A stretch of DNA of 22,962 nucleotides, taken from contig JAOZOU010000017.1 of NCBI GenBank assembly GCA_029933125.1, positions 1,553 to 24,514 of the forward strand, given 5' to 3'. Under the pieces are notes generated by a model. The model did not search any database. It was not told the origin of the DNA and saw only the letters and a list, made by a program, of their open reading frames with translations. The first letter of the stretch is position 1, and each line of letters begins with the position of its first letter. The position numbers were made by a program, and so were the translations under genes. Origin of the DNA: a bacterium. GTDB taxonomy: Bacteria; Arandabacterota; Arandabacteria; Arandabacterales; Arandabacteraceae. Shown piece by piece: positions 3,522 to 19,185 of this stretch.

Positions 3522-3566
3522 ACTCTGACGAACTGGCATAAGCATAGCAAAGCGGGGAAGGTTAGC

Positions 3567-4394
3567 GTGAACACCTGGGTTGAGATATTAAGCCGGAGGA
3601 AATGGGCTTTTGTCATCGCACTGCTAGCCTTCTTGGGTCTGGGCGGTAGATGCAGCAACGACGCGGTCGAGATGGGATTAATCTGGGAAGATGACTTTGA
3701 AGGACCAGCCGGCTCCCTTCCCGACCCGACTAAGTGGCGCTTCGACATAGGGACGGATTGGGGAAATGCTCAGCTCGAATATGATACCGACAGACCCGAG
3801 AACGTCTCACTCGATGGCCAGGGGCACCTCGCAATCATAGCACGGAAGGAAAACTACCGAGGCAGACAATATACCTCCGGTCGTATAAATACTCGTGACC
3901 TATTCGAGCATACCTACGGCCGATTCGAGGCTAGAATCCGCCTACCGATAGGTAAGGGCATCTGGCCTGCCTTCTGGCTCCTCGGTGCCAATTTTGATGA
4001 AGTGGGCTGGCCAGAGTGTGGAGAGATAGACATAATGGAGTATCGCGGGCAAGAACCCCATATCGTGCTGGGTAGCATTCATGGACCTGGCTATTCTGGT
4101 GGCAATGCACTTGGCAACAGATTCAGGCTGAGCCAGGGAACCTTCAATGACGATTTTCATGTCTTCGCGATTGAGTGGAATCCATCGAGCATAACCTGGT
4201 ATGTTGACGGTGTGGCATATCAGACACTTGAAACCCGCGATTTGCCTGATGGGGCGAGATGGGTCTTTGACCACCCCTTCTTCATAATCCTGAACGTAGC
4301 CGTAGGCGGACACTTTGTTGGTCCACCTGACTCTACAACAGCGTTTCCCCAAACTATGCTTGTTGACTGGGTCCGTGTCTACGGAGGAACGTGA
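3567..4394 (+). CDS. GH16 endo-beta-1,3-glucanase (laminarinase type)
   Basis: The protein has 275 residues and starts at GTG 3567 behind a purine-rich GGGGAAGG. It is a single GH16 jelly-roll. The active-site strand GEIDIMEY gives nucleophile E153, D155 and acid/base E158. The spacing E-x-D-x-x-E has the extra residue typical of laminarinases rather than lichenases. Conserved flanks WPAFWLLG (133-140), FAIEWNP and the C-terminal LVDWVRVYG are all present. Family members cleave internal beta-1,3 bonds (or 1,3-1,4 bonds) in glucans. The N-terminus is hydrophobic and ends G-G-R-C, which suggests a lipoprotein, but arginine just before the cysteine is unusual for a lipobox, so simple secretion or membrane anchoring is possible. 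It lies 45 bases after the binding lipoprotein, and its stop overlaps the next start by one base. Confidence 0.95.
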   Translation: MNTWVEILSRRKWAFVIALLAFLGLGGRCSNDAVEMGLIWEDDFEGPAGSLPDPTKWRFDIGTDWGNAQLEYDTDRPENVSLDGQGHLAIIARKENYRGRQYTSGRINTRDLFEHTYGRFEARIRLPIGKGIWPAFWLLGANFDEVGWPECGEIDIMEYRGQEPHIVLGSIHGPGYSGGNALGNRFRLSQGTFNDDFHVFAIEWNPSSITWYVDGVAYQTLETRDLPDGARWVFDHPFFIILNVAVGGHFVGPPDSTTAFPQTMLVDWVRVYGGT

Positions 4395-6061
4395 TGAAGG
4401 GGCGCGCTCGCCTTTGGGTTGCCTCAATATTCTCGCTCCTAATTCTAGCCCTACTGGCCTGTAGTGATCATACGCAGGTGATGCCCGAAGGTGTACTCGT
4501 TGTTTCTCAGGAACAACAGGCTTCATGGATAAGAAACTTTAACCCTCTGACAACTGCAGCAGCAGCTCGCTGGCCTACACTTGCAGGGATTTATGAGCCT
4601 CTCTTTGTCTATAACAGTGTAAAGGCTGAATATGTCCCCTGGCTCGGACTCTCCTACCGGTGGCTTAGCGGCAATCAAGTCTTACGTGTGGAGACGCGCG
4701 ACAGTGTACTCTGGTCAGATGGGAAGCCGTTTTCGGCAAAGGACGTTACATTCACATTCAAGCTTATGAAGCAATTTCCTGCTCTTGACCGACGAGGTGT
4801 CTGGAATTTCCTCGCAGATGTAATCACGGTTGACAGCAACACGGTTGATTTCCACTTCAGCCGAATCTACATCCCTGGCTTCGATGAAATAGCTGCCCAG
4901 CCGATAGTGCCTGAGCACATCTGGAGCAAGATTGAGGATCCGGTAACATATCCCAATGAAAATCCAGTCGCAACAGGTCCGTTTACTGAGGTCAGAATGT
5001 TCAAGAACCAGGTTTTTGAGCTCGGACGGAACCCACACTACTGGCAAAAGGGGCTTCCGAAGATCGAGGCTCTGAGATTTCCCGCTCTTCCTTCAAACGA
5101 CCGTGCGAATCTTGCTCTGGTCTTTGACGAAATAGACTGGGCTGGCAATTTCGTTCCGGCAATCGATAGGGTCTATGTTAGGCGTGATCCTGAGCATCAC
5201 CATTACTGGTTCCCCTTGACCGGAAGCACCATCTTTCTCTATGCCAACACAACCCGAAAACCGTTCGATGATGTACGCGTACGCAAAGCTTTGAGCATGG
5301 CGATTGATAGGCAGTTTCTCATAGATGTTGCTCTCTTTGGCTATTCTCGTCCATCAGATCCGTCAGCACTCAGCGATGCCTACGCATCCTGGCCTAAGAT
5401 AGAGGTGAGTGAGCAAGAAAATTGGGTGAGGTACAATCCTGAAGCTGCCAGGAGAATGCTTGACGAGGCCGGACTCGTTCTGGATTCAGAAGGAAGGCGT
5501 CATCTCCCGGATGGCAGCCCACTTGAATTTGAGATAATAACGGTCTCCGGATGGTCAGACTGGGTAAGGGCTTGTCAGGTGATTGCACGCACCTACACAG
5601 AACTTGGTCTTAAGACATCGGTACGAACATATGACTTTAGTGCCTGGTTTCAAAACGTGCTAGAAGGCAATTTCGACTTAGCCCTTGGCTGGTCCTACGA
5701 AGGTCCGACCCCTTATGTCTTCTATCGCTGGCTAATGGCTTCCGAGACTGTTAAACCAGTTGGTGAAGCAACAACAGGAAACTGGCATCGCTATGGTAGC
5801 CCAAGGGCTGATGATGTTCTCAAAGCGTTCGAGAAGGAGGCAGATCCGGTGAAACAAAGAGACCTCAGCCTTCGCCTGCAGAGGATCTTCTTTGAGGAAG
5901 CTCCGGCAATACCGCTCTATCCCAATCCGTCGTGGGCTGAATACAATGCACGGCGATTTGTCGGTTTTCCATCAGCGGAGAATCCTTATGCTGATCCGTC
6001 GCCAAACAAGTTTGACAGGGGTGAATGTCTCTTGGTTCTCACCTCACTAAGACCGAGATAG
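4394..6061 (+). CDS. ABC importer substrate-binding lipoprotein (SBP_bac_5, Dpp/Opp type)
   Basis: The 555-residue protein starts at ATG 4394, overlapping the GH16 stop as TGATG. GGAGG at 4383-4387 is six bases upstream of this ATG, which makes it better placed than the GTG at 4391. A signal ending LLALLAC marks a lipoprotein. The body matches family 5 solute-binding proteins: the early 'L-A-G-I-Y-E-P-L-F' segment, W-S-D-G-K-P-F-S-A-K-D-V near residue 110, and F-D-D-V-R-V-R-K-A-L-S-M-A-I-D-R near residue 300. The family was named for peptides, but members in Thermotoga bind cellobiose and laminaribiose. Between a glucanase and importer permeases, beta-glucan oligosaccharides are the likelier ligand here. 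The ligand cannot be read from the sequence. Confidence 0.92.
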   Translation: MKGRARLWVASIFSLLILALLACSDHTQVMPEGVLVVSQEQQASWIRNFNPLTTAAAARWPTLAGIYEPLFVYNSVKAEYVPWLGLSYRWLSGNQVLRVETRDSVLWSDGKPFSAKDVTFTFKLMKQFPALDRRGVWNFLADVITVDSNTVDFHFSRIYIPGFDEIAAQPIVPEHIWSKIEDPVTYPNENPVATGPFTEVRMFKNQVFELGRNPHYWQKGLPKIEALRFPALPSNDRANLALVFDEIDWAGNFVPAIDRVYVRRDPEHHHYWFPLTGSTIFLYANTTRKPFDDVRVRKALSMAIDRQFLIDVALFGYSRPSDPSALSDAYASWPKIEVSEQENWVRYNPEAARRMLDEAGLVLDSEGRRHLPDGSPLEFEIITVSGWSDWVRACQVIARTYTELGLKTSVRTYDFSAWFQNVLEGNFDLALGWSYEGPTPYVFYRWLMASETVKPVGEATTGNWHRYGSPRADDVLKAFEKEADPVKQRDLSLRLQRIFFEEAPAIPLYPNPSWAEYNARRFVGFPSAENPYADPSPNKFDRGECLLVLTSLRPR

Positions 6062-6070
6062 GAGACAGAT

Positions 6071-7054
6071 GTGAGATACATTCTCAGGAGGCTTGGATTT
6101 TATCTGGTTGCAGCCTGGGCAGCCGTGACTCTGAATTTCTTCCTGCCAAGGCTCATGCCAGGTGATCCTGCAACGGCTCTCTTTGCACGGTTTCGTGGTC
6201 AGCTCTCCCCTGAAGCGATGGAAGCCCTGCGTGAGACCTTCGGTCTCACAGAAGCCCCCCTGGTGAAGCAATACCTCACGTACCTGGGTCACATATTGAG
6301 AGGTGATATGGGGATTTCGGTAGCCTACTTCCCTTCTGAGGTCTCAGGAGTAATAGCAACGGGGCTACTTTGGACCATCCTTATCGCTGGCACAGCCGTA
6401 GTGGTGAGCTTCGCGATCGGTACCACCCTTGGCATAATCGCCGCTTCGAGAAGAGGAGGCTGGCTTGACAATGTGTTGCCTTCGGTTCTCATCTTCGTGG
6501 GTTCTTTCCCGTATTTCTGGCTTGCAATGGTTGTGCTCTTCATTATGGGATTTACGCTACGCTGGTTCCCACTGGGTCACGCCTACAGTGACAATCTGAC
6601 TCCATCTCTATCACTTGAATTCATCTCAAGCGTTCTGACCCATGCCTTTTTGCCGGTTGCAACCGTTGTGGTTGCAACCCTGGGCGGATGGCTGCTTTCG
6701 ATGCGTAACAATATGGTCTCAGTCCTTGGCTCAGACTATGTCAATCTTGCTAGGGCGAAAGGACTTAAGCCAGCACGCGTAATCATGAGGTATGCAGCAC
6801 GCAATGCCTTGCTACCAAGTGTTACAGGTTTTGGAATGGCACTTGGTTATATCCTCGGTGGCTCCCTCCTGACTGAGATCGTATTCTCCTATCCAGGCCA
6901 GGGCTATCTCCTGGTTCAAGCCGTAAGGAATCAGGACTACCCTCTGATGCAGGGTATATTCCTTATGATCACACTCGCTGTGCTGGGTGCAAACCTGATT
7001 ATTGATGTGGTTTACCTGTGGCTTGATCCAAGGACAAGGGAGATAGGACGATGA
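6071..7054 (+). CDS. ABC importer permease, DppB/OppB type
   Basis: The 327-residue inner-membrane protein starts at GTG 6071 behind GGAGA (6061-6065), nine bases after the binding-protein gene. About six or seven hydrophobic segments are visible. The start, 'R-Y-I-L-R-R-L-G-F-Y-L-V', and the segment 'F-F-L-P-R-L-M-P-G-D-P-A' are hallmarks of the DppB/OppB branch. The cytoplasmic EAA loop that contacts the ATPases is present as 'Y-V-N-L-A-R-A-K-G-L-K-P' (about residues 223-234). It should pair with the next gene to form the membrane channel. Confidence 0.94.
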   Translation: MRYILRRLGFYLVAAWAAVTLNFFLPRLMPGDPATALFARFRGQLSPEAMEALRETFGLTEAPLVKQYLTYLGHILRGDMGISVAYFPSEVSGVIATGLLWTILIAGTAVVVSFAIGTTLGIIAASRRGGWLDNVLPSVLIFVGSFPYFWLAMVVLFIMGFTLRWFPLGHAYSDNLTPSLSLEFISSVLTHAFLPVATVVVATLGGWLLSMRNNMVSVLGSDYVNLARAKGLKPARVIMRYAARNALLPSVTGFGMALGYILGGSLLTEIVFSYPGQGYLLVQAVRNQDYPLMQGIFLMITLAVLGANLIIDVVYLWLDPRTREIGR

Positions 7055-7986
7055 AAACAAATTCACAGGAAACAACAGCTTCGATCTGGGTCGAAGCTAT
7101 CCGTAAGGATCGCAAAGCCACAGCGGGTGCAATAATCATCGGTATCTTCTTGCTGATAGCAATTGTGGGTCCTTTCTTTGTTGGGGACCCCCATGAACCA
7201 GTCGGTATTCCGCTTCAACCCCCATCGAGATCGCATCTCCTTGGCACTACCGGTCAGGGGCAGGATGTCCTTGCGCAGGTTGTTGTAGGCACACGTATGT
7301 CGCTTGCCATTGGCTTCTGTGTTGGAATTATCGTCGTTATGGTAGGCGCTTTGATTGGAATAACAGCCGGCTTCTTTGGTGGCTGGGTTGACTCTGTGCT
7401 TTCACTTCTCATAAATGTCTTCCTCGTGATCCCCGGACTGCCGCTTGCCATTGTGATTGCTGCCTATCTTCCATCGGGACCTCTTACCCTGGGACTCGTC
7501 CTCGTGATTACAGGCTGGGCATGGAATGCGAGAGTGCTTCGCGCTCAAACTCTTTCAGTTCGCCGCAGAGATTTCGTGGCAGCCGCTGTCGTCACAGGTG
7601 AAAGCTCTCTCCGCATAGTTTCTCGCGAGATATTGCCAACGATGACTTCCCTGATTGTTGCTCAAATTATCGGAAGCACGGTATATGCGATAGGCGCGCA
7701 GGTGGGGCTCGAATTCCTCGGTCTGGGTGATGTGGCGACAGTCACCTGGGGAACAAACCTCTACTGGGCGCAAAATGATTCGGCACTACTGATGGGAGCC
7801 TGGTGGACATTTGTGCCAACTGGCTTGTGCATAGCGCTTGTGGGGTTCGGACTTACTATGCTTAACTCAGGTTTTGATGAGATAACCAATCCACGTCTAA
7901 GACTTGAGCGGGTCTGGAGAGCCTTCCTCGGAGGTTTAGGTCGTCCTCCTGAACCTTCGACTCCGGTTGTGAGGATAGCCGAATGA
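7051..7986 (+). CDS. ABC importer permease, DppC/OppC type
   Basis: The 311-residue protein starts at ATG 7051 with an ATGA overlap on the previous stop, which indicates translational coupling. It has the DppC/OppC features: a single N-terminal transmembrane segment (about residues 25-45), a short periplasmic part containing 'H-L-L-G-T-T-G-Q-G-Q-D-V-L-A', and then the transport domain with the EAA-type loop 'D-F-V-A-A-A-V-V-T-G-E-S' (about 174-185). 'L-E-F-L-G-L-G' and 'T-W-G-T-N-L' near residues 224-245 are also typical of this branch. It is the second half of the permease pair. Confidence 0.94.
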   Translation: MKTNSQETTASIWVEAIRKDRKATAGAIIIGIFLLIAIVGPFFVGDPHEPVGIPLQPPSRSHLLGTTGQGQDVLAQVVVGTRMSLAIGFCVGIIVVMVGALIGITAGFFGGWVDSVLSLLINVFLVIPGLPLAIVIAAYLPSGPLTLGLVLVITGWAWNARVLRAQTLSVRRRDFVAAAVVTGESSLRIVSREILPTMTSLIVAQIIGSTVYAIGAQVGLEFLGLGDVATVTWGTNLYWAQNDSALLMGAWWTFVPTGLCIALVGFGLTMLNSGFDEITNPRLRLERVWRAFLGGLGRPPEPSTPVVRIAE

Positions 7987-8942
7987 ATGAACCTATTTTG
8001 AAAATTGAGAACCTCAGCGTTGACTATGTGACTGGTGAGACCCTTGTGCGTGCAGTGGACAGGGTCTCCCTAGATGTCAAGCCAGGTGAAATAGTTGGTC
8101 TTGCAGGCGAATCCGGCTGTGGCAAGACGACGCTTGCCAAGGCTATCCTCAGAATACTTCCCCCACCGGCAATAATAACTGGCGGCAAGATCGAATACAG
8201 AGGGAAAAACATACTCGAGATAAATGAAGGTGAATTGCGGAAGCTCAGATGGCAAAAGATTTCTATAGTCTTTCAAAGTGCGATGAATGCTCTCAACCCG
8301 GTGATAAGGATAGGTGAGCAGATCACGGACGTAATACTGGCTCATAAGTCGGTCTCGCCCGATGAAGCCTATGATCGTGCAAGCCAACTCCTCGAAATGG
8401 TCGGCATACACCCCATCCACCTAAATTCTTACTCTCACCAGCTCTCAGGAGGTATGCGCCAGAGGGTTTGCATAGCTCTTGCACTGGCGCTCGAACCAGA
8501 CATAGTGATCATGGATGAGCCAACAACAGCCCTTGATGTCATAGTTGAGCGTGAGATTCTCAACCAGATAAAGGATCTTCAAGCAAGACTTGGCTTTTCA
8601 GTCATCTATATTACCCACGACCTTGCCCGCCTGCTTCAGTTCTCACACAGGCTAGCAATCCTCTATGCAGCTCATATTGCGGAGATTGCACCTGCTCAAG
8701 AACTCCAAGAAAATCCTCTTCATCCCTATACTCAGAAACTTATGCGGGCAATGCCCTCGCTTGTGCCATCAGAGGTCAAACCCGAGACCATACCAGGCAC
8801 TCCGCCGAGTCTTGCCAGTCCACCACCTGGTTGCAGGTTTCATCCCCGGTGCGATCGAGCAATTGAGATCTGCCAAAGGGAAAAGCCACCTCTTGTTGAG
8901 AAAGCTACCAACCACCTCGTGGCCTGTCACCTTGCGAGCTAG
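7983..8942 (+). CDS. ABC importer ATPase, DppD/OppD type
   Basis: The 319-residue ATPase overlaps the DppC-type gene by ATGA. Walker A GESGCGKTT is at 42-50, the Q-loop at V-F-Q (96-98), signature LSGGMRQ at 154-160, Walker B IVIMDEP at 174-180 and the switch histidine in I-T-H-D at residue 212. The C-terminus has the oligopeptide/dipeptide-transporter extension with C-R-F-H-P-R-C and a later cysteine pair. This subfamily works as a heterodimer, but the partner is not next door: it is encoded at 13462-14466 on the other strand. The gene ends only 14 bases from the stop of the convergent glycosidase gene, with no room for separate terminators. Confidence 0.94.
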   Translation: MNEPILKIENLSVDYVTGETLVRAVDRVSLDVKPGEIVGLAGESGCGKTTLAKAILRILPPPAIITGGKIEYRGKNILEINEGELRKLRWQKISIVFQSAMNALNPVIRIGEQITDVILAHKSVSPDEAYDRASQLLEMVGIHPIHLNSYSHQLSGGMRQRVCIALALALEPDIVIMDEPTTALDVIVEREILNQIKDLQARLGFSVIYITHDLARLLQFSHRLAILYAAHIAEIAPAQELQENPLHPYTQKLMRAMPSLVPSEVKPETIPGTPPSLASPPPGCRFHPRCDRAIEICQREKPPLVEKATNHLVACHLAS

Positions 8943-8956
8943 CCAGACTCATCACC

Positions 8957-11900
8957 CTACAGACTTATGTGGAGATAGCTGCTTATCTCCCACTCGTTGC
9001 CTTTATCACCCGATCCGTCAGGCATATACCTCGGTGAATGCTCATCGAGGGATCGCCAGAGCCCCCGCACACCCACCCGCGTCTGAGGGAAACCAAACCA
9101 CCGAGGTTTACCCAGGCTATATGAGACATCGCCCATCACCTGCAGAGGATAGGTTAGATTGAAGTCTTTGTGATAGTCGTATGGTCCCCAATCATTAAAC
9201 TTTAAGAAACCTTCCAGTGCGAGGCTGCCTCGGGTAAGCCTTCCCACGATACCATACCGATGTATGAGTCTGGGATCATCACCATTGGGTTCACCGTTTC
9301 CACCATAGAAGTTGACAACAAGGCGTGAGTCGGCATTCAACTTGGAGACAATTCGACTCCATATCTCCCAAACATCCCTTGCCGGCGTGCTAGCTGGGAA
9401 AGCAAAAGGTGTACCATCCTCAAGTATCCCGATGCCAGCATCGAGGGTTGTCGGCTGGTGCCTATATACAATGCCAAGGCTTGCTGCAAGACGTGCATTT
9501 TCGCGCACATCATTGTCCCATGCCCAGAACCACGTTGCAGGCGTGGGGTCATAGGTTATAAGTAATTCACCGGCAACCATCTCGCGGTTGGCTCTTACCG
9601 CAAAAGGATCATCGAGCACATTGCGCAATCTGCCTGGTGGTGGCGCATCGGGTGGCATTGGACCTATGATTGGCTTCTGCCACAGGAAATTGGGTGCAAA
9701 CTGGAAGTTGCCATAACTGTAGGCAAGCCCTGTCAGGAAGTTATTCTGATTACCCAGGCCACAGTCTTTCAATCGCCAGCCAGTAAATGTGACAGCTTCA
9801 GTCGGACCACCATCGGCAACTATGCCCATATGAGCTGCCTGAGCATACCAGTGGACCCTTCCCTTCACCACCGTAATCTTGACCTTAGCACCAAAGGTGT
9901 CTGAGCCCTTGACCTCATCGAGAAGCACTTTGTAGCTACCACCATCACGCTCGGCGACCTGGAACTCATCACCGATCTTTGTGGAACCAGACCAGATGCC
10001 GCCAACCTCGATTGTCGCAGGACCCTTTGTAGTCGAAAGTGTCAGGGTGGCTTTGCGATTCCTTGGCAGGGGGACAGCTATTGAGCTTGTGATGGAGACC
10101 TGTTTTTCGATGTCTTCCTGGAAGATGCCCGTAATGTTGTAGTTTGATACCTGGCGCTGATACTTCAATATGATCGCAGGATTAGCCCCCCACCAGAGCT
10201 GTGGTCCCACAGCAACCTTGAGTCCATCCAACCATTTCTTTGCTGCAACCTCAACACCAACAGGTGCCTCAGCATTGTATATGTCTATGTTCTCACCGTA
10301 GTAAGCGCTCCTATACAATCCAAAGAGATCACCCTCATAGCCCCAATGGAAGTGTCCCGTTCGGTAGAAGCCATCAAGCCTGAACCAACGATCGTCCCAA
10401 GATATCGATGCCTGATAGACCTTGACGCGTTCGATGTCTTGCATCTCATATGGTTGGTCATCAGCGATAATCGTCCTCGGTCGCCCTCTGTTCTCATAGA
10501 AGATCTCATCGATGCGATTTTCAGGCACGTGACCGAGAACGTTTAAAGATAAAGTTGCCATAACATTGCCTTTGGGTTGAGCCTTGAAATCGACGTAGAA
10601 GGATTCAAGATGATCAAAACCGCGAAAAGCAGGCCAGGTATTGCTTGCCACACCTTTCTTGGGGATGCTCGTTAGGTAGCCACCTGTATTATAAGTCTCA
10701 AACTCAAGCCTTACACCTGAGACCTGCGCGCGGCTTGAGGACTCCGCAAGGAGGCTTGCCTTATCTGCGCGTGCATCTACCTCGGCGACGACTGGGTCGA
10801 TCCTCTTGAAGTGTGCTTTAATTGTCTTAAGAGTTGTAGTCGGTGCGTAAGGGTCAAGCGTGAATGCCTCTTTCAAAGCGTAGTAAGCAGCACGCGGATA
10901 AACATAGAAGAGTCCTCGCTCATCTGGATAGCCCTTTGCGGCTATCCCCCACCATTCCTCGTTCATGTTGTTCTCACCAGGAACGTAATCGGGATAGCCA
11001 CCATTGGGCCAGGAAGCATTGGTATCGTGTATGTCAAGCCTGCTTTCCTGATCGTACTTCCACCATCCATCGCTCCATTGAAAGATGAAACCGCCGATTG
11101 CATTGCCTGCACGCCCCTTCCCCCAAGACTGCTCATATATTTCCTCCCACTGACCCAGGAGATAACGAGCCTGAGTGATCTGATCTTCTCTCATTCTCTT
11201 TGCGTCCCATGCGTCTGCACCAAACTCGCTGAACATAACGGGAATACCAAGGTGCTTTTTGACAACATCGAAAAGGTCACGGGCAGAAATCCCGCGATAG
11301 ACATTGCAGGCAAAGATATCTAAATGCTTACACTCCTCAGCGATAACTTCTATGTACTGGACGTCACCGTTGGCAATTGCAACGAGTCTTCCAGGATCCC
11401 GTTCCTTTATTACCTGAATGATCTCATCGTAAAGCGAATAGAGATAGCGGGCTCTTGCCGGACCACGCTCTTCCTCGGGCAGAGCTTCTATCTCGGGTGA
11501 AGTCCAATTGAGAACATAGTTGTTCTCATTTCCGAGGAGCCACATAAGGAAGCCAGGCACATTCCTGTATTGTTCTGCGAGCTCGCCTATCTCCTGCTTG
11601 AGTGCCTCCCGAACTTTGGGATCGGAATAGTTGACAGTAGGCATCCAGACACCATCAAGCGTATAGCCGTAACGTCCAACGGGATGATTTACAACTGTAA
11701 ATATACCGTAGGTCTTGTATATGTATTCCACCCATCGCGGTGGTATGCCAACGTACTGCCTTATCACGTTTATCCCCATCGCCTTAAGAAGGGGCATCTC
11801 ACGTTCAAGGGCTTCCTTGATAAAATCATCAGGCTGATCCCATATGCTGAACATATAGTTCTCGCCAATCGGAATATAGTCCCAGTTCATACCGAAGATC

Positions 11901-12073
11901 ATAAAGTCCCTGCCACCAACTTGAAGTCTCTGCCCGTGACCATCGCTCACGAGGCTTATCTCCCGGAACTCGCCAGATGGCTCGTCTTTTGCGCCACTTG
12001 CTGATGCAAAGCCGACAATGCCAAGTACGCAGATCAGTGCTAAGAGTCGATACTTCAGATTAGTTACCTTCAT
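8957..12073 (-). CDS. Clan GH-A glycosidase fused to an outer-membrane-barrel-like domain
   Basis: The 1038-residue protein starts at ATG 12073 behind GAGGGGG and has a signal peptide (about residues 1-27). Residues 40-400 form a TIM-barrel glycosidase of the GH2/GH5-like clan. It carries W-L-L-G-N-E-N-N-Y with probable acid/base E183, and V-M-F-S-E-F-G with probable nucleophile E283. The domain resembles GH2 catalytic domains without the usual N-terminal sandwiches. From about residue 560 the protein turns into alternating aromatic/hydrophobic strands with short turns, such as 'V-G-P-Q-L-W-W-G-A-N-P', and 'G-P-Y-D-Y-H-K-D-F-N-L-T-Y-P'. This looks like an outer-membrane beta-barrel. The last residue is leucine, not the usual phenylalanine. 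The substrate is probably a beta-glucan given the neighbours. It is last in its operon, 12 bases after the GH1 gene. Confidence 0.85.
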   Translation of the reverse strand: MKVTNLKYRLLALICVLGIVGFASASGAKDEPSGEFREISLVSDGHGQRLQVGGRDFMIFGMNWDYIPIGENYMFSIWDQPDDFIKEALEREMPLLKAMGINVIRQYVGIPPRWVEYIYKTYGIFTVVNHPVGRYGYTLDGVWMPTVNYSDPKVREALKQEIGELAEQYRNVPGFLMWLLGNENNYVLNWTSPEIEALPEEERGPARARYLYSLYDEIIQVIKERDPGRLVAIANGDVQYIEVIAEECKHLDIFACNVYRGISARDLFDVVKKHLGIPVMFSEFGADAWDAKRMREDQITQARYLLGQWEEIYEQSWGKGRAGNAIGGFIFQWSDGWWKYDQESRLDIHDTNASWPNGGYPDYVPGENNMNEEWWGIAAKGYPDERGLFYVYPRAAYYALKEAFTLDPYAPTTTLKTIKAHFKRIDPVVAEVDARADKASLLAESSSRAQVSGVRLEFETYNTGGYLTSIPKKGVASNTWPAFRGFDHLESFYVDFKAQPKGNVMATLSLNVLGHVPENRIDEIFYENRGRPRTIIADDQPYEMQDIERVKVYQASISWDDRWFRLDGFYRTGHFHWGYEGDLFGLYRSAYYGENIDIYNAEAPVGVEVAAKKWLDGLKVAVGPQLWWGANPAIILKYQRQVSNYNITGIFQEDIEKQVSITSSIAVPLPRNRKATLTLSTTKGPATIEVGGIWSGSTKIGDEFQVAERDGGSYKVLLDEVKGSDTFGAKVKITVVKGRVHWYAQAAHMGIVADGGPTEAVTFTGWRLKDCGLGNQNNFLTGLAYSYGNFQFAPNFLWQKPIIGPMPPDAPPPGRLRNVLDDPFAVRANREMVAGELLITYDPTPATWFWAWDNDVRENARLAASLGIVYRHQPTTLDAGIGILEDGTPFAFPASTPARDVWEIWSRIVSKLNADSRLVVNFYGGNGEPNGDDPRLIHRYGIVGRLTRGSLALEGFLKFNDWGPYDYHKDFNLTYPLQVMGDVSYSLGKPRWFGFPQTRVGVRGLWRSLDEHSPRYMPDGSGDKGNEWEISSYLHISL

Positions 12074-12085
12074 AAGCTAACCCCC

Positions 12086-13462
12086 TCAAATTCTCAGCCT
12101 CTCATCCTCTATTTCAAAACCTCGCCTAGCAATCACATCGCGATACCAGAAGGCACTATCCTTAGGAAGCCGCTTCTGGCTTACGTAGTCAACCCAGAAG
12201 AGCCCAAACCGCTTTGTATAGCCATGTGCCCACTCGAAGTTGTCAAGAAGCGACCACACAAAATATCCCTTAAGATTGACACCATCATCCATAGCGCGCT
12301 TTGCCTGGACGAGGTGGTCACGAAGGTACCTTATGCGACGCTCATCGTGAATCTTCCCGTCTTCGCTTGGCCCATCACTGTAAGCAGCTCCATTTTCCGT
12401 TATGTATACACAGCCAATGCCATATTCACCCTTGAGACGCTTGAGCATAAGGTAAAGCCCCTCAGGATAAACTTCCCATCCCATTTCGGTGAGATCTTCA
12501 TCAGGAACCGCTTTGACGGCAACAGGTTCATCATCTTTGCCAGCCCTTACGACTATCCTTGAGTAATAGTTAACCCCGAGAAAATCGACAGGTGCAGTGA
12601 TTTTCTCAAAGTCACCTCGCTTGATGAAGTCTGGCTCATCGGTCTCAAGATCACCTCGCTTCTTGCGAAAGGCAATCGCATCTTGAGGATACGAGCCTCT
12701 GAAGATGGGATCAAGGAACCACCTATTGAAGATGCCATCAAAAATGGTAGCTGCCCTCTCATCCTGCTCACCCGGGGAGGTGGCGAAGGCTGGCACGAGG
12801 TTTAGCACTATACCAATACTTGCCTTAGGAGAATTTGATCTTATGATCCCAACAGCCTCACCGTGCGAAACCAATAGATTATGGGCAACTATGAGCGCTT
12901 CCCGAGTATCCCGGTGCCCCGGGGCATGTTCGCCAACCTCATGACCAAGAAATGCTATACACCAGGGTTCGTTATGGGTTATCCAATTCCGCACCCTGTC
13001 GCCGAGTTTCCCAGTAACAAGGTCGACATATGCGGCGAAATCATCTATGAGCTTTCTATTCGCCCAGCCACCTTCATCCTGTAAAGCCTGAGGGAGGTCC
13101 CAGTGATAAAGTGTGACAAAAGGCTGGACGTCGATTCCGAGAAGGGCGTCTATCAATCTATCATAGAAGTCGAGTCCGGCTGGATTGGCTGTTTTCCCAT
13201 CGGGCATAACCCTCGGCCACGCTATTGAGAAACGATAGGCATTCACCCCAAGCCACTTTAACAATTCAACGTCTTCACGCCAACGGTGATAATGATCACA
13301 AGCACGACTTGCATCCGATCCATCCTCAATCTTTCCAGGTGTGGAACTGAAGCGATCCCAGATCGACTCGCCCCGACCATTTTCTCCCCATGCACCCTCG
13401 ATCTGATGAGATGATGTAGCCACACCCCAGATGAAATCCTCAGGGAAGGTGATCGAAGCCAT
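12086..13462 (-). CDS. GH1 beta-glucosidase
   Basis: The 458-residue enzyme starts at ATG 13462, which overlaps the upstream ATPase stop by one base (TGATG). GGAG lies seven bases upstream, so this ATG is preferred to the GTG at 13468. All GH1 hallmarks are present: F-I-W-G-V-A-T-S-S-H-Q-I-E-G near the N-terminus, T-H-N-E-P-W with acid/base E165, N-Y-Y-S-R at 299-303, and I-T-E-N-G with nucleophile E356. The aglycone-side W-S-L-L-D-N-F-E-W is also there. No signal peptide is seen, so it is cytoplasmic. Family members release glucose from the non-reducing end of cellobiose, laminaribiose and similar oligosaccharides, which fits a role after uptake by the importer. The length is normal for the family. 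Confidence 0.97.
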   Translation of the reverse strand: MASITFPEDFIWGVATSSHQIEGAWGENGRGESIWDRFSSTPGKIEDGSDASRACDHYHRWREDVELLKWLGVNAYRFSIAWPRVMPDGKTANPAGLDFYDRLIDALLGIDVQPFVTLYHWDLPQALQDEGGWANRKLIDDFAAYVDLVTGKLGDRVRNWITHNEPWCIAFLGHEVGEHAPGHRDTREALIVAHNLLVSHGEAVGIIRSNSPKASIGIVLNLVPAFATSPGEQDERAATIFDGIFNRWFLDPIFRGSYPQDAIAFRKKRGDLETDEPDFIKRGDFEKITAPVDFLGVNYYSRIVVRAGKDDEPVAVKAVPDEDLTEMGWEVYPEGLYLMLKRLKGEYGIGCVYITENGAAYSDGPSEDGKIHDERRIRYLRDHLVQAKRAMDDGVNLKGYFVWSLLDNFEWAHGYTKRFGLFWVDYVSQKRLPKDSAFWYRDVIARRGFEIEDERLRI

Positions 13463-14466
13463 CAGCACTCTCCTACCTTATGAGTAGTGTAGAGGTGACA
13501 CCTTACCCCTCGACCTTCAAGATCGACTACCACTGGATCTTCTTCCCAGCATAGATCAAACGCCTCAGGGCACCTTGGAGCAAAAGGACAACCCCGGGAT
13601 TCCTCCTCACGCCCCACTTCAAGGGAATGCCTGAAGTCGGCTTCGTCATATTCAACTTTGGCGATTGAGGAAAGAAGCGCCCGCGTGTAGGGATGAAAAG
13701 GATTTGATACAATGACATCGCTTGCTGCACTTTCGACAATTCGACCCTGCAAAAGCACAAGAATCTGTCGAGCAAGATACCTGGCTGATGCCAGATCGTG
13801 GGTGATGAGCAAAACGGCAAGCTTGCGCTCATCGATTAAACCCTCTATGAGATTCAAGATTTCCATCCTTATCGAGACATCCAGCATTGAGGTTGGCTCA
13901 TCAGCTATCAGTACATCTGGATCAACAGCAAGGGCTCTTGCAATAGCTACGCGTTGACGCTGACCACCCGATAGCTCGGCCGGATAGCGACGGATAAACT
14001 CCTCAGCCGGCTCAAGACCGACGGTCCGAAGCAGATCGAGTGCATCCTGCCAGGCACTTGCTCGAGTTGATCGCTTGTGTCTGAGGAGCGGTCTTATGAG
14101 ATGGTGGGCAACCGTGTGAACTGGATTCAAGGAGGCAAAAGGATCCTGGAATATGAGCTGAACCTTGTGCCGATACCACAACGAAGCATGCCTCCTCTCA
14201 CGCTCAAAGACATCGATACCCTCAAGAAAAATCTTGCCGCCATCAGGTGGCTCAAGCCTTGCAAGCAGGCGTGCGATTGTACTCTTACCACTTCCCGACT
14301 CACCCACAAGACCAATGGCTTCACCGCGGTTAAGACAGAATGATACTCTGTCAGCTGCCACCACCTTGCGTTTTGCCCCAAACAGAGCGCCCGCCTCATA
14401 GGTCTTCGAGAGATCTCTAGCCTCAAGTAAGCACCTGGCCTCAGGTTGCCTTCCGGTCAAAGCCAT
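13462..14466 (-). CDS. ABC importer ATPase, DppF/OppF type
   Basis: The 334-residue ATPase has Walker A GESGSGKST at 55-63, Q-loop I-F-Q-D-P (105-109), signature LSGGQRQ at 165-171, Walker B VLIADEP at 185-191 and switch H223. The C-terminal oligopeptide-transporter motif C-P-F-A-P-R-C is present. I place the start at ATG 14466 because homology begins soon after. The GGAGG touches this ATG directly, however, so the in-frame TTG at 14460, six bases from the GGAGG, is a credible true start. The frame stays open upstream to 14616 without a convincing start. It completes the importer whose other four parts are at 4394-8942 and leads the operon with GH1 and the GH-A/barrel gene. Confidence 0.92.
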   Translation of the reverse strand: MALTGRQPEARCLLEARDLSKTYEAGALFGAKRKVVAADRVSFCLNRGEAIGLVGESGSGKSTIARLLARLEPPDGGKIFLEGIDVFERERRHASLWYRHKVQLIFQDPFASLNPVHTVAHHLIRPLLRHKRSTRASAWQDALDLLRTVGLEPAEEFIRRYPAELSGGQRQRVAIARALAVDPDVLIADEPTSMLDVSIRMEILNLIEGLIDERKLAVLLITHDLASARYLARQILVLLQGRIVESAASDVIVSNPFHPYTRALLSSIAKVEYDEADFRHSLEVGREEESRGCPFAPRCPEAFDLCWEEDPVVVDLEGRGVRCHLYTTHKVGEC

Positions 14467-14520
14467 CCTCCGGTCTCGCAAGAATGGAAAAAGCCCAGAC
14501 CTCAGTCCTGTTGTTGCCAA

Positions 14521-14549
14521 ATAGTGCCAAACGCGAATGCCTGTGTCAA
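14521..14549 (-). promoter_or_regulatory. Candidate promoter of the minus-strand ATPase/GH1/GH-A operon
   Basis: Reading the minus strand, TTGACA (14549-14544) is followed after 17 bases by CACTAT (14526-14521). The -35 is perfect and the -10 matches three of six positions. It lies 55 bases upstream of the ATPase start and back-to-back with the plus-strand promoter. Confidence 0.45.
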
Positions 14550-14563
14550 CCATACGCGTTGAC
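14545..14563. promoter_or_regulatory. Inverted repeat between divergent -35 boxes, possible shared operator
   Basis: GTCAAC (14545-14550) and GTTGAC (14558-14563) are exact complements around a seven-base centre. The arms are largely the two outward-facing -35 boxes, so the symmetry may come only from that arrangement. A regulator bound here would block both promoters. Confidence 0.35.
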
Positions 14564-14587
14564 TTTTGGCAGAAAATGTGATAGTAT
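14559..14587 (+). promoter_or_regulatory. Sigma70-type promoter of the GH16/binding-module gene cluster
   Basis: TTGACT (14559-14564) is followed after exactly 17 bases by TAGTAT (14582-14587). Five of six -35 and four of six -10 positions match consensus. Transcription would start near 14594, leaving a very short leader with AAGGAG at 14592-14597 before the coding sequence. It is the best promoter match I noticed in the window. Confidence 0.6.
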
Positions 14588-14610
14588 GCTGAAGGAGATT
14601 GGTGGAGTCT

Positions 14611-16197
14611 ATGCAAACCATAATGAAATACATGCGTTTAATCTTACTAAGCTGGGCTTTTGTGCTCTTGGCAAGCGGGGTAACCTCTTCGCAGTGCCTG
14701 CTTGCCAATCCGAGTTTTGAGCTCACAGGTTCGGGCGGAAGCAACTTTGGAGGTTGGAATCAGTTTGGCAATACCGGCATATCAACCGACGCAACCCACG
14801 GTCACCTCGCAGCCAGAGTAACAGGGCCCGACCTGGGTGGTTGGGATGTCTCGGGCTACTGGCAGAAGCTTGATACCTCACCAGGAGAGCGCTGGGCAGC
14901 TTCAGTTAAGGGCTGGCACACATCGGGAAATCCCCTGTCAGGTCAGTCCAGGGCAATCCTTAACATAGAGTGGCGGGACGCTTCAGAGAATCTCATATCC
15001 TACGAGTCGTACACGGTTGCAGATGCTTCCACACCTGTAGATGAGATCCAAGCCTTTTACGTTGAAAGCGGACCAGCTCCATCGGGGACGGCAACCACAC
15101 GTCTCCTTCTTGGGGTTTTGCAAGCACCTGGTGATCCAGTGCCGGATGTTTACTATGACGAGGCGACCTTCGAAAACCTTGGTCCACCAACTGTAGAAGA
15201 AATTCAGTGGAATGACTTCCCTGGAGGCAGAACCCTCGACTTCTCAGGCTATACCTGGCGCGTTAAAGGTCCTGGCTACTATGGACCTGGTCCAAGTCTT
15301 TTCTCAGACGATCCGAGTTGCGTCTGGGTCGATGGCGAGGGGAAACTCCACCTCACCATAAAGCGAATCGGTGGTTCCTGGTATAGCACCGAAGTTGCGC
15401 TTGTTGACCTCTTAGGCTATGGCGACTACATTTTCACAACAGAGACTCAGCTCGACCTGCTTGACCGTCATGTCGTCCTCGGGCTTTTCCTCTGGGAATA
15501 CCGCAGGTGCTATGACCCAGCTTACTCCTGGTGGAATCCCAGCAACGAGATGGATATAGAATTCAGCCGATGGGACGATCCAGGTAACGAGATAGCCCAT
15601 TACGTGGTTCAGCCATATGACTATCCGGGCAACATCGTGAATTTCGACATATCTTTCTCTCCAGACGAAGTTACAAGCCATGCCTTCCGATGGCTTCCCG
15701 ATAAGGTTGAATACCGAAGCTGGCGAGGTGGACCTGCAGATGAAGCACCTGAGAATATGATCAACTCCTGGACATATACCGGTCCTCACATCCCGCGTCC
15801 CGAGCGGCCTCGAGTCCACATGAATCTCTGGCAGTTCAACGGTTCACCTTCTACTGAGCAGGAAGTTGTTATTAGCCAGTTCACTTTTGTCCCTGCTGAT
15901 AACGGCGCTGGCATAAGTCAGGAAGATCATGATATCGAGTTGTACGCTACAACAAATCCATTTAGTGACCAAACAACGATTCACTACTGTTTGAAGGAAG
16001 GGGGGATGGCACATATAGCGATTTATGATGTCACCGGTAGACTCGTAAGGGATCTTGGGAGTAGCACCGGGACTCAGAACTCGGTTGTCTGGGATGGATG
16101 TGATACAACAGGTAGGCGTGTTTCCGCAGGAATCTATCTGTGTCACATTCGTACAGACCGTGAGGCAACAAGCCGAAAGCTTGTTGTCGTGAGATGA
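14611..16197 (+). CDS. Secreted GH16 beta-glucanase with binding module and FlgD/T9SS-like C-terminal domain
   Basis: The 528-residue protein is placed at ATG 14611, followed by a clear signal peptide. In-frame TTG 14599 and GTG 14602 are alternatives; AAGGAG at 14592-14597 would suit GTG 14602, so the start is unsettled. Residues 29-190 are a jelly-roll binding-like module beginning L-A-N-P-S-F-E and ending with D-V-Y-Y-D-E. Residues 198-428 are a GH16-type domain with N-E-M-D-I-E-F: E313, D315 and E317 in the E-x-D-x-E spacing of lichenases and kappa-carrageenases, unlike the laminarinase-type enzyme at 3567. Residues 441-528 are a FlgD Ig-like/type A sorting-like domain with N-P-F, 'Y-D-V-T-G-R-L-V-R' and 'A-G-I-Y-L-C'. 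In the FCB group such endings often direct type IX secretion. It heads a cluster of three plus-strand genes. Confidence 0.88.
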   Translation: MQTIMKYMRLILLSWAFVLLASGVTSSQCLLANPSFELTGSGGSNFGGWNQFGNTGISTDATHGHLAARVTGPDLGGWDVSGYWQKLDTSPGERWAASVKGWHTSGNPLSGQSRAILNIEWRDASENLISYESYTVADASTPVDEIQAFYVESGPAPSGTATTRLLLGVLQAPGDPVPDVYYDEATFENLGPPTVEEIQWNDFPGGRTLDFSGYTWRVKGPGYYGPGPSLFSDDPSCVWVDGEGKLHLTIKRIGGSWYSTEVALVDLLGYGDYIFTTETQLDLLDRHVVLGLFLWEYRRCYDPAYSWWNPSNEMDIEFSRWDDPGNEIAHYVVQPYDYPGNIVNFDISFSPDEVTSHAFRWLPDKVEYRSWRGGPADEAPENMINSWTYTGPHIPRPERPRVHMNLWQFNGSPSTEQEVVISQFTFVPADNGAGISQEDHDIELYATTNPFSDQTTIHYCLKEGGMAHIAIYDVTGRLVRDLGSSTGTQNSVVWDGCDTTGRRVSAGIYLCHIRTDREATSRKLVVVR

Positions 16198-16211
16198 AAC
16201 TCTCGCAACGT

Positions 16212-16232
16212 TTCCGGAAAAGGTATCCGGAA
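16212..16232 (+). repeat. Short hairpin between the GH16 and single-module genes
   Basis: TTCCGG (16212-16217) pairs exactly with CCGGAA (16227-16232) around nine bases. It lies in the 62-base gap between two co-directional genes. There is no U-run after it, so it is a weak attenuator or processing-site candidate at most. Confidence 0.25.
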
Positions 16233-16259
16233 GAGACCTAAAGGAAAGGGGGTCGGATC

Positions 16260-16880
16260 ATGCGGTTTGGTATGGGCATTATAGCTTTGCTTTGCGTGAT
16301 GCTTGCAGCATCGGCTGTTGGAGCTAACATGCTCACTAATCCTGGTTTTGAGGAGGGGCTCAACGGCTGGGGATTCTTTGGTAATGTCTATCACGAGACT
16401 ACTAACCCACCTCAGTTTGTTCCCTACGAGGGTGACGGGCTGGTCTCAATGTTCGGAAACTGGAGTGGTCCTTACAATGTGAGTGGCATCTATCAGGAAT
16501 TCCCGACAAGCCCTGGTGAGTGCTATTCGCTCTCAGCCAAGTCACGTCATTGGAGCGGCGATCCGATGGTGGGAACAGGCGCACCAGATTTTAACTGGGT
16601 TGTCCAGAAGATAGTCTGGTTCGATGCTACCCACACTGAAATAGGTGGCGTCGAATCTACCATTCTCGATGGCACCTTCCCGACCGATGTGTGGTTTGAC
16701 AATGATCCCGTCATTGGCACAGCTCCCGATGGCGCAGTGACAGTGGGAGCTTATATTCTCTACATTCAGCCTGCAAGCGATGGTGGTGCAGCTCACATCG
16801 ATATGGTCGATCTTGAATACCTTGGTCCATCGGCTACTGAGCCGACGACCTGGGGTGGAATCAAGCAGCTCTACAGGTAG
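16260..16880 (+). CDS. Secreted single carbohydrate-binding-like module with TWxxIKxLYR tail
   Basis: The 206-residue protein starts at ATG 16260 after a purine-rich AAGGAAAGGGGG. The signal peptide covers about residues 1-22. The rest is one jelly-roll-like module, M-L-T-N-P-G-F-E at 24-31 through H-I-D-M-V-D-L-E-Y-L, homologous by eye to the module in the preceding GH16 protein and to both modules in the next gene; 'F-F-G-N-V-Y' and 'I-F-G-N-V-Y' are shared signatures. No catalytic residues are recognised. The C-terminus departs from its neighbours: instead of a FlgD/T9SS-like domain it ends after a short spacer in T-W-G-G-I-K-Q-L-Y-R. The same kind of ending occurs on the unrelated protein at 18610-19185. 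Probable role: an exported glucan-binding protein, attached or sorted by its tail; the latter part is hypothesis. Confidence 0.85.
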   Translation: MRFGMGIIALLCVMLAASAVGANMLTNPGFEEGLNGWGFFGNVYHETTNPPQFVPYEGDGLVSMFGNWSGPYNVSGIYQEFPTSPGECYSLSAKSRHWSGDPMVGTGAPDFNWVVQKIVWFDATHTEIGGVESTILDGTFPTDVWFDNDPVIGTAPDGAVTVGAYILYIQPASDGGAAHIDMVDLEYLGPSATEPTTWGGIKQLYR

Positions 16881-16941
16881 TTTGGTAAGGCTCAACTGAT
16901 AGCTCAAAGCAGGCACCTGGACTACTGAAAGTCAGGACAGA

Positions 16942-16973
16942 GCAGAGGGCAGCGAGAGCGGCTTGCCCTCTGC
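16942..16973 (+). terminator. Strong intergenic hairpin without U-tract
   Basis: GCAGAGGGCA (16942-16951) pairs perfectly with TGCCCTCTGC (16964-16973), a ten-base GC-rich stem with a twelve-base loop. It lies between the single-module gene and the two-module gene. No T-run follows, so it may be an mRNA-stabilising or attenuating structure rather than a classical terminator. Confidence 0.4.
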
Positions 16974-17008
16974 ACCGAGTTGCACAAAGCTGGTGAGGAG
17001 GTTTGGAA

Positions 17009-18418
17009 ATGAAATCTGTCCTTTTAGTGCTCGTGAGCTTAGTCCTGGTTGCCGTATTGGGAATAGCCTCTGGATCGCTGGCTCAGATAAACCTGCTGGC
17101 GAATCCTGGCTTTGAGACAGGCGGTGGCTCCTACGATGGGTGGTTTACCTTCGGAAGTGGACCACACATATCCACTGCTGAAACCGATGGCATAATGCGA
17201 AGTGGGGTTGCGGCTGCCAAGATCTTTGGCGAGTTCACAGGCTGTCCGGATCCCCATGGCCTTAATGTGGGTGGCTTCGGTCAGGCATTTACACCAACCA
17301 TAGGCAAGCTTTATGAATTCAGCGGCTATTCTTACATCTCGAGTTCAGACCCTATCCCTGGAACAGATACATGTAACCGCAATCGCTGCATCGCCAAGAT
17401 AGTTTTCTGGGATGCTGATTCAGCAGGATATGAAATCTCAGCAAACGAGATTGTAATCGGCGACGGCAACATGCCCCAGGATGAGTGGGTTTACTTCTCA
17501 ATCTCGGCACCTGCACCTCCTGGAGCAAAGCGTGTTGAGGCGCTGATTCTCTTCCTGCAGCCGGGTTGTGACTCAGGCTCGGTCTTTATCGATGACCTCA
17601 CCTTCTACGAGCTCCCGATAATTTCTGAGCCTAATATTCTTGTCAATCCGAGCTTCGACGGAGATCTCTCTGGCTGGAACATCTTCGGTAACGTTTATTA
17701 CGATGCTCGCTACTGGGCTGTGAGGACTCCGCCGGGTGCTGCCAAGATGTTCTCTACCTTCGTTCCCGGCTACGATTCGGGCATGTATCAGCGATTCCCG
17801 GCTAAACCCGATACGAGCTATAAGCTTGAAGTCTATACCCTCAATACGTGCTGGGAGACGCCGCTTACACCAGGTAATGACAACTTCGTCCTTGCTGAGA
17901 TTGCCTTCAGGGATTCAGCTGATACGGTCTTTGCAACTGCTGAAACCGTTGTGGCAGACAGCACCTCGCCGCTTGGAACCTGGACAAAGCATTCTTTGAT
18001 AGCCACCGCTCCAGCTGGAACTGAATCGCTCGATGTATATCTGCTCTTCATTTCACCTTCCCAGATGGGTGGTGCAATATGGGTTGATGACGTCCTCTTC
18101 AGAGCCCTGCCGCCAGCAGGTGTGGAGGATGACCATAACTGCCTGGTGCGGCTACATCAAAACTTGCCCAACCCCTTTAATTCGGCAACCAGGATAAGGT
18201 TTGATCTGGCTGAGCCGTCACGAGTTGTGGTAAATGTCTATGACGTAAGGGGTAAGCTTGTTAAGACCCTCGTTGATGGCTACCTGAGCGAGGGCAGACA
18301 TGAGCTTACCTGGGATGCAACCGATGCCAAGGGCGATGCTGTCGCAGACGGCATCTATTTCTATCAGCTCGTGACCAAGCACGGAGTTCAAACCAAGAAG
18401 ATGGTATTGATTCAATAG
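17009..18418 (+). CDS. Secreted protein with two carbohydrate-binding-like modules and FlgD/T9SS-like sorting domain
   Basis: The start is ATG 17009, seven bases after GAGGAGG at 16995-17001; a TTG at 17003 is in frame but too close. The 469-residue protein has a signal peptide ending S-L-A-Q (about residue 26). Module one covers residues 29-202 and module two 209-367. Both begin N-P-[GS]-F-[ED] and end with a hydrophobic 'I-D-D-L-T-F' or 'V-D-D-V-L-F' strand. Residues 377-469 are a classic type A sorting/FlgD-like domain: L-P-N-P-F-N-S-A-T, V-Y-D-V-R-G-K-L-V-K-T-L, W-D-A-T-D, D-G-I-Y-F-Y and final K-K-M-V-L-I-Q. There is no enzyme domain. It is probably exported to the surface to bind glycan, last in the cluster with the GH16 protein. 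Confidence 0.88.
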   Translation: MKSVLLVLVSLVLVAVLGIASGSLAQINLLANPGFETGGGSYDGWFTFGSGPHISTAETDGIMRSGVAAAKIFGEFTGCPDPHGLNVGGFGQAFTPTIGKLYEFSGYSYISSSDPIPGTDTCNRNRCIAKIVFWDADSAGYEISANEIVIGDGNMPQDEWVYFSISAPAPPGAKRVEALILFLQPGCDSGSVFIDDLTFYELPIISEPNILVNPSFDGDLSGWNIFGNVYYDARYWAVRTPPGAAKMFSTFVPGYDSGMYQRFPAKPDTSYKLEVYTLNTCWETPLTPGNDNFVLAEIAFRDSADTVFATAETVVADSTSPLGTWTKHSLIATAPAGTESLDVYLLFISPSQMGGAIWVDDVLFRALPPAGVEDDHNCLVRLHQNLPNPFNSATRIRFDLAEPSRVVVNVYDVRGKLVKTLVDGYLSEGRHELTWDATDAKGDAVADGIYFYQLVTKHGVQTKKMVLIQ

Positions 18419-18609: not shown

Positions 18610-19185
18610 TCACCTGTACAGGGCCTTTATTAAACTCCAGGTTTGTGACCCTATTGAATTGCCAGTCTTTCTCAAACGGAAATTGCAATCGATCTCAATG
18701 AGAAGAGTAGAATCAGTCTTACCGCGTTGGGGGAAGCCTCGCGTTGGACATACGATGGCACAGGTATGCTCCTCATAACCCTCCGCATAGGCGTGCATTG
18801 TAACCATCGGACACGGTAGCTGTATGCAGCAGCAATGTGACATGTCTGACATGATGGGCACGAGATAGGTGCCGCCGTACCAACCCGAGCTATCTGTAAC
18901 AAATGGGCAGACCCACAGGCATAGGTCACAGGTATGTATCGGGTCCCAAGAATCCACGATCGTGATCTCGGGATCGCAAGTAACTGTAGCTCCTGCTATC
19001 CCGACATGTGTGGATTCATCTACTACACGCCCCTCGAACCTGAACTCGATCACACAAGTTGGATCTGAAGGCAAGATTCTAAATACGTCACCAGTGGCGG
19101 CAAGACCGGGCTCAGCGCACGCAAGCCAAAGCACAACAAATCCTGACAGCACTGCTAGGGCTGAACGGCTTCCTTGGTTCCGCAT
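18610..19185 (-). CDS. Small cysteine-rich secreted protein with carboxypeptidase-regulatory-like fold and TWxxIKxLYR tail
   Basis: The 191-residue protein starts at ATG 19185; GGAGG lies 13 bases upstream, rather far, but there is no better in-frame start. The N-terminus is a signal peptide, cleaved either after about residue 30 (L-A-A) or used as a lipoprotein signal at C23. Residues 48-75, 'F-E-G-R-V-V-D-E-S-T' followed by 'I-A-G-A-T-V-T-C', are typical of the first strands of carboxypeptidase-regulatory-like Ig-fold domains. There are 13 cysteines, including C-D-L-C-L-W-V-C (86-93) and C-C-C (118-120). That suggests disulfides or metal binding outside the cytoplasm. The final residues Q-T-W-S-L-I-K-A-L-Y-R match the tail of the protein at 16260-16880, though the bodies are unrelated. 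Function not recognised. Confidence 0.8.
   Translation of the reverse strand: MRNQGSRSALAVLSGFVVLWLACAEPGLAATGDVFRILPSDPTCVIEFRFEGRVVDESTHVGIAGATVTCDPEITIVDSWDPIHTCDLCLWVCPFVTDSSGWYGGTYLVPIMSDMSHCCCIQLPCPMVTMHAYAEGYEEHTCAIVCPTRGFPQRGKTDSTLLIEIDCNFRLRKTGNSIGSQTWSLIKALYR

Follow-up and report, generated by a model that had tools for sequence, protein, structure and literature searches.

Two exported proteins with unrelated bodies, encoded in a bacterial DNA stretch of 22,962 nucleotides (the window), share a short C-terminal tail, and the recurrence of this tail in the window's genome is far beyond chance. As it recurs on approximately 10 to 70 exported proteins per genome in several uncultured bacterial phyla, it is very probably a portable address label for Sec-exported proteins that are secreted or reside at the surface. 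We place the probability that the tail is a sorting tag of some kind at about 0.9. The combined claim, that it is a sorting tag and that its route is linked to T9SS, has even odds. The core of the tag is [ST]-W-[GS]-x-[IV]-K-[AS]-[LM]-[YF]-R, and a flexible linker of a few residues (GPSATEP or SPVEE) precedes it.

Results

Tagged proteins of the window

The tagged proteins of the window and two neighbors with homologous modules are listed in Table 1. The initial annotation had proposed that the two tails are identical at 7 of 11 positions, that both end at the stop codon, and that they terminate exported proteins with unrelated bodies. All of this is confirmed: the translations place both tails immediately before the stop codon, both proteins have signal-peptide-like N-termini, and BLASTP gives no convincing similarity between them outside the tail. 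The linker of the single-module protein (16260-16880) belongs to the wider consensus G-P-[ST]-A-T-E-P (see following). This protein has no match in Pfam or NCBIfam, and the best solved-structure matches to its model are CBM16 carbohydrate-binding modules; by this model, its body is a CBM16-like module and not an orphan.

Table 1. Coordinates in the window of the tagged proteins, their parts, and the homologous neighbors
Feature	Position	Strand	Evidence
Second neighbor: at the N-terminus, a homologue of the 16260-16880 body; type A CTD at residues 453-530	14599..16197	+	BLASTP, TIGR04183
Exported single-module protein, 206 aa, tagged	16260..16880	+	ORF and translation
Signal peptide MRFGMGIIALLCVMLAASAVGA, end approximate	16260..16325	+	Read from translation; heuristic h-region score 3.42
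Linker GPSATEP	16824..16844	+	Profile of 85 tags; pLDDT <50 from residue 192
Tag TTWGGIKQLYR, abuts the stop codon	16845..16877	+	Translation, genome pattern search, profile of 85 tags
Neighbor: two homologues of the 16260-16880 body, followed by a C-terminal type A CTD	17003..18418	+	BLASTP, TIGR04183
T9SS type A CTD, residues 389-468, at the place of the tag in 16260-16880	18167..18406	+	TIGR04183, PF13860
Cysteine-rich exported protein, 191 aa, tagged	18610..19185	-	ORF; orthologue with the same tail, L172 in G002
Tag QTWSLIKALYR, abuts the stop codon	18613..18645	-	Translation, genome pattern search

The region 2151-18418 of the window resembles a glycan-use locus, with enzyme names read from the sequences by eye. 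It would include genes of a binding-protein-dependent ABC transporter, a GH16-like protein with an EIDIME motif (3567-4394), a large glycosidase-like protein (8957-12073), and a GH1-like protein (12086-13468), as well as three putatively exported proteins that look carbohydrate binding.

Distribution of the tag

The pattern W-x-x-[IVM]-K-x-[LIMF]-[YF]-R-stop was searched as DNA, with the reversed pattern as a control. There are 21 matches in the window's genome (3.23 Mb, 97% complete), 148 in the window's phylum, where all 8 genomes are positive, and 861 (summed) in a second, Eisenbacteria-type phylum, where 20 of 20 genomes are positive; the control gives 0 in each of the three sets. Over 42 genomes together, one finds 1015 matches of the pattern versus 1 of its reverse. 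The initial annotation had called for this search of the source genome and its relatives, and had mentioned similar endings in FCB-type candidate phyla. This link is borne out by the tags of Eisenbacteria, Krumholzibacteria, Effluviviaceae, and Coatesbacteria. When GTDB contigs were scanned with a stricter pattern, the matches listed included Candidatus Eisenbacteria, Krumholzibacteria, Effluviviaceae, a 'Gemmatimonadota' bin, and Coatesbacteria bin961. Among Coatesbacteria, tags are present in only 2 of 14 genomes, with 5 in bin961 (CP070633.1) and 1 in the other.

Position and sequence of the tag

Of 94 sampled motifs, 85 end exactly at the stop codon and all lie at most 8 residues from it. 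A codon other than a stop follows the Arg (first base A, C, or G) in just 10 matches from 8 genomes, and in the 9 of these that were read, a stop is found 1 to 8 residues downstream. Hence, all 94 motifs are at the extreme C-terminus. Extensions of 1 to 8 residues are seen, for example, in L165, L169, L173, L190-L193, and L201, and homologues elsewhere have longer ones (e.g., SWGTIKGLYRQRARRRPPG in L137), as if the loss of the stop codon were tolerated or the tag were decaying.

The 85 tags with exact ends give the wider consensus G-P-[ST]-A-T-E-P-T-T-W-G-x-I-K-[AS]-[LM]-Y-R, in which W, K, and R are set by the search pattern itself. In the set from the GTDB scan (stricter pattern), the linker among the matches listed is S-P-V-E-x-S-[ST]. 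Relaxed inspection identifies a few natural variants with a final K, E, or Q, and the true number of tags is thus above the pattern counts. All Gly, Arg, and stop codons (all three stops) are used among the tags, and this free choice of codons indicates that selection acts on the protein and not on the DNA.

The tail also lies outside the folded part of the proteins. In the model of the single-module protein, residue 190 is the last of the β-sandwich, and the pLDDT is below 50 over residues 192-206 (with a shallow alignment). In the model of an unrelated tagged family with 12 members, the tag is a detached helix at residues 260-269, beyond a body that ends at residue 250; the helix is modeled at low confidence, and this alignment is shallow too. 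If the tail were just the last helix of a fold shared by both window proteins, as the initial annotation had considered, one would expect otherwise; the BLASTP comparison, the diversity of tagged bodies (about 59 clusters, see following), and the two models with the tag outside the body all speak against it.

Export and diversity of the tagged proteins

Tagged ORFs are strongly enriched in predicted signal peptides. Using a heuristic that accepts any start codon, a rule that inflates the counts in both classes, 93 of 95 tagged ORFs have one, versus 220 of 606 in the background (Fisher P = 7e-34); when just the first start codon is accepted, the counts are 48 of 95 versus 98 of 606 (P = 2e-12). 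In both comparisons, the background consists of the other ORFs in the same loci around the tags, which may themselves be rich in exported proteins. In a less biased set from the phylum, a signal peptide is predicted in 65 of 75 untruncated tagged ORFs, and some of the tagged ORFs lacking one are short fragments or genes with in-frame stops. The enrichment at the C-termini of exported proteins, on which the idea of a sorting tag had been made to depend, is thus found in the genome counts, in the terminal position of the 94 motifs, and in the 93 signal peptides among 95 tagged ORFs.

The 193 tagged proteins fall into about 59 body clusters. Recognizable bodies include β-helix, NHL propeller, lamin-tail, FG-GAP, CBM20, choice-of-anchor J and V, and DNRLRE domains, along with relatives of MYXO-CTERM and PEP-CTERM proteins. 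The NCBI name "choice-of-anchor" denotes domains that stand beside different C-terminal anchors in different organisms, and such domains are therefore the expected company of a new anchor or sorting signal. Some tagged genes occur in tandem families (e.g., L012-L015 and L024).

A few tagged genes contain in-frame stops. In L010 (G000:C76:241120-244149, minus strand) and in L155 / L132 (G001:C43), which come from two genera, an in-frame TGA is found at the same position (contexts GFGIG*SDANYTEVAGSD and GLGIG*SSALYTKVAGSD), the frame being open on both sides. An identical 15-mer, GTCGCCGGGAGCGAC, with a 5-bp hairpin, begins approximately 21 nt downstream of the TGA in both. The position of the hairpin is as for a bacterial SECIS, with fold z-scores of only -0.6 and -0.8. 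Judged from its sequence, this tagged protein may be a selenoprotein that is secreted. Three further tagged ORFs of the window's genome, those of L004, L014, and L020, are cut by an in-frame TGA, TAA, and TGA, respectively, and the sequence upstream looks coding; these stops may reflect decay, assembly error, or recoding, which are alike in this data.

Exchange with the T9SS type A CTD

The neighbor at 17003-18418 provides an example of a homologous body with a different end. Its two modules are similar to the body of the tagged single-module protein (BLASTP E = 4e-23 and 6e-23), and it scores 34.3 bits with TIGR04183 (cut-off 23). A similar arrangement is found at 14599-16197, with E = 4e-15 for the module and 29.4 bits for the type A CTD. 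In the loci analyzed, most of the untagged homologues that tagged bodies have end either in a decayed or extended tag or in a type A CTD; the few that end in neither include some frame artifacts. At least seven tagged body families have homologues with a type A CTD, identified by eye outside the window. The window's genome contains 89 matches to TIGR04183 alongside its 21 tags. On these alignments, the tag takes the place that the T9SS type A CTD has in homologues of the same body. The notion that the tag is the truncated start of a CTD, with which it shares a [PG]-V-E linker, was inspected by eye and is too weak.

T9SS components and candidate readers

The SprA translocon is present in all 25 tag-bearing genomes tested. 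Because T9SS occurs in all these phyla, this co-occurrence by itself weighs little. SprA-like proteins are found in 14 of 14 Coatesbacteria (over the cut-off in 12), and in 12 of the 14 a SprA or SprA-like protein is present and the tag is absent. These untagged genomes rule out the presence of T9SS as the full explanation of the tag: T9SS is insufficient, and something beyond SprA is needed. PorU is over the cut-off in six of seven tag-rich genomes tested (G000 and five of six others), the exception being Krumholzibacterium G015. The PorV family is present in 21 of 21 genomes tested, with 9 to 18 matches per genome in G000, G007, G012, G013, and G015, and the best PorU and PorV matches of the window's genome adjoin (C120:121782-126103).

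Several candidate readers of the tag were rejected. The PorP/SprF family has no member above the cut-off in the tagged genomes tested, and its sub-threshold matches occur in tagged and untagged genomes alike, which removes a shuttle of this type. For PorV, a tree of 117 paralogues of the family contains no paralogue tracking the tag in Coatesbacteria, as sequences from the two tagged genomes (8 of 13 and 6 of 9 matches included, minus one too short) group with those of untagged relatives. A clade of nine sequences in this tree (support 98/94) is confined to tag-rich phyla among the sampled paralogues. This clade would be the first place to seek a receptor of the tag, and phylogeny alone may account for its distribution. 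The initial annotation had also called for a look at co-occurring processing enzymes or secretion components. No co-occurring enzyme was found, and exosortase (PF09721), which is present in two of four other tagged genomes tested, is missing from every one of the 8 genomes of the window's phylum and so is discarded for this role.

Discussion

A tail that is C-terminal, occurs genome-wide on unrelated proteins with signal peptides, and lies outside the fold agrees with the sorting tag originally proposed. After Sec export and removal of the signal peptide, the tail would fold as a short amphipathic helix, with W, I, L, and Y on one face and K and R exposed, and would be bound by a periplasmic or outer-membrane receptor. 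This receptor would send the tagged protein where type A CTD cargo goes, i.e., outside the cell or to its surface. The likeliest route would be T9SS, via the SprA translocon itself or via a shuttle. In P. gingivalis, GFP is secreted with no more than the last 22 residues of the HBP35 CTD (PMC10202324), which makes a short C-terminal T9SS signal plausible, and CTDs are read by shuttles, not only by the translocon (PMC12618676). Among the features of T9SS substrates, SprA, PorV, and a Sec signal peptide are all found, and PorU in six of seven genomes, consistent with this putative secretion route. Against it, the tag has neither the motif nor the length of type A, B, or C CTDs. A separate and undescribed sorting route, with its own receptor and working beside T9SS in several FCB-type candidate phyla, is possible, at somewhat less than even odds.

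The tail might instead be a docking peptide, by which a dedicated non-T9SS receptor (an outer-membrane protein, a surface scaffold, or a periplasmic complex) retains soluble exported proteins, as in the cargo peptides of encapsulins or in dockerins. This would require neither T9SS transport across the outer membrane nor processing. An amphipathic helix that stands apart from the body, with a W/I/L/Y face, lends itself to helix docking, the presence of T9SS fails to predict the tag, and the final residues vary (K, E, Q, or an extension of 1 to 8 residues), which fits binding better than exact cleavage. However, homologous bodies carry T9SS CTDs and some are choice-of-anchor, indicating the destination of CTD proteins, and no receptor was found; docking is the less likely of the two readings. 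Cleavage or transpeptidation of the tag by a sorting enzyme yet to be described is improbable. The broad use on unrelated exported bodies, some choice-of-anchor, is like that of exosortase/PEP-CTERM, sortase/LPXTG, and myxosortase/MYXO-CTERM, but the tag has no transmembrane segment and thus no membrane hold for an intramembrane enzyme, exosortase is missing from the window's phylum, and the tag stays conserved right to its terminus, in contrast to the variable basic tail of the known systems.

Signals for proteases can also be short C-terminal tails. Yet a signal for degradation or quality control in the envelope is very improbable for a tail that is maintained across dozens of unrelated secreted bodies, that exchanges with CTDs, and that ends in a charged Arg, tail-specific proteases favoring hydrophobic tails. 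Finally, the tandem families would suit a resemblance due to the shared ancestry of one domain, to a mobile DNA element, or to chance, but the number of body clusters and the counts of forward and reversed matches in 42 genomes refute this, and with the free synonymous variation they leave it a negligible likelihood.

Comparison with known systems

No curated model in NCBIfam or Pfam covers the tail. By titles and abstracts, the open-licence papers with its motif strings are not about it, and no paper linking Eisenbacteria or Krumholzibacteriota with T9SS was found among them. The tag was therefore rightly called undescribed as far as this literature and these models go, a description elsewhere being possible. 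It was also said to fit no known sorting tag, and this stands, since it lacks the tested defining features of the type A CTD, PEP-CTERM, LPXTG, and MYXO-CTERM.

Like the T9SS type A CTD (TIGR04183/PF18962), the tag is C-terminal on Sec-exported proteins, follows a linker, and occurs in the same genomes, on homologous bodies, and by the dozens per genome. However, the type A CTD is an Ig-like fold of approximately 70 to 80 residues with motifs A-E, whereas the tag is a peptide of 9 to 16 residues, and these models match neither the two tagged proteins of the window nor 56 tagged representatives. The type B and type C CTDs are likewise alternative C-terminal signals, but they have approximately 100 residues or more, and type B uses its own PorP/SprF shuttle, of which none is above the cut-off in the tagged genomes tested.

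PEP-CTERM, MYXO-CTERM, and LPXTG resemble the tag in giving a short common C-terminus to many exported bodies of unrelated kinds, choice-of-anchor proteins among them. Unlike PEP-CTERM, the last 20 residues of the consensus contain no hydrophobic stretch and hence no transmembrane segment; unlike LPXTG and its sortase, the consensus contains no LPXTG-like motif. In MYXO-CTERM, a transmembrane helix follows the Cys motif. The tag differs from this myxosortase system by having neither a transmembrane segment nor an invariant Cys in the tail, the latter being carried by the MYXO-CTERM motif (PMC11980579). The cargo peptides of encapsulins and microcompartments are, like the tag, short amphipathic terminal peptides with a flexible linker, but their cargo is cytoplasmic, whereas tagged proteins have Sec signal peptides.

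C-terminal sorting tags led to the first recognition of several classes of bacterial surface proteins, and the present one gives a string test for finding exported proteins in candidate phyla known mainly from metagenomes. A signal of less than 20 residues that swaps with an Ig-like CTD would bear on the minimal feature that T9SS or its shuttles read. In conclusion, C-terminal sorting signals are familiar as a kind; this probable tag is unfamiliar, as are its size and its putative reader.
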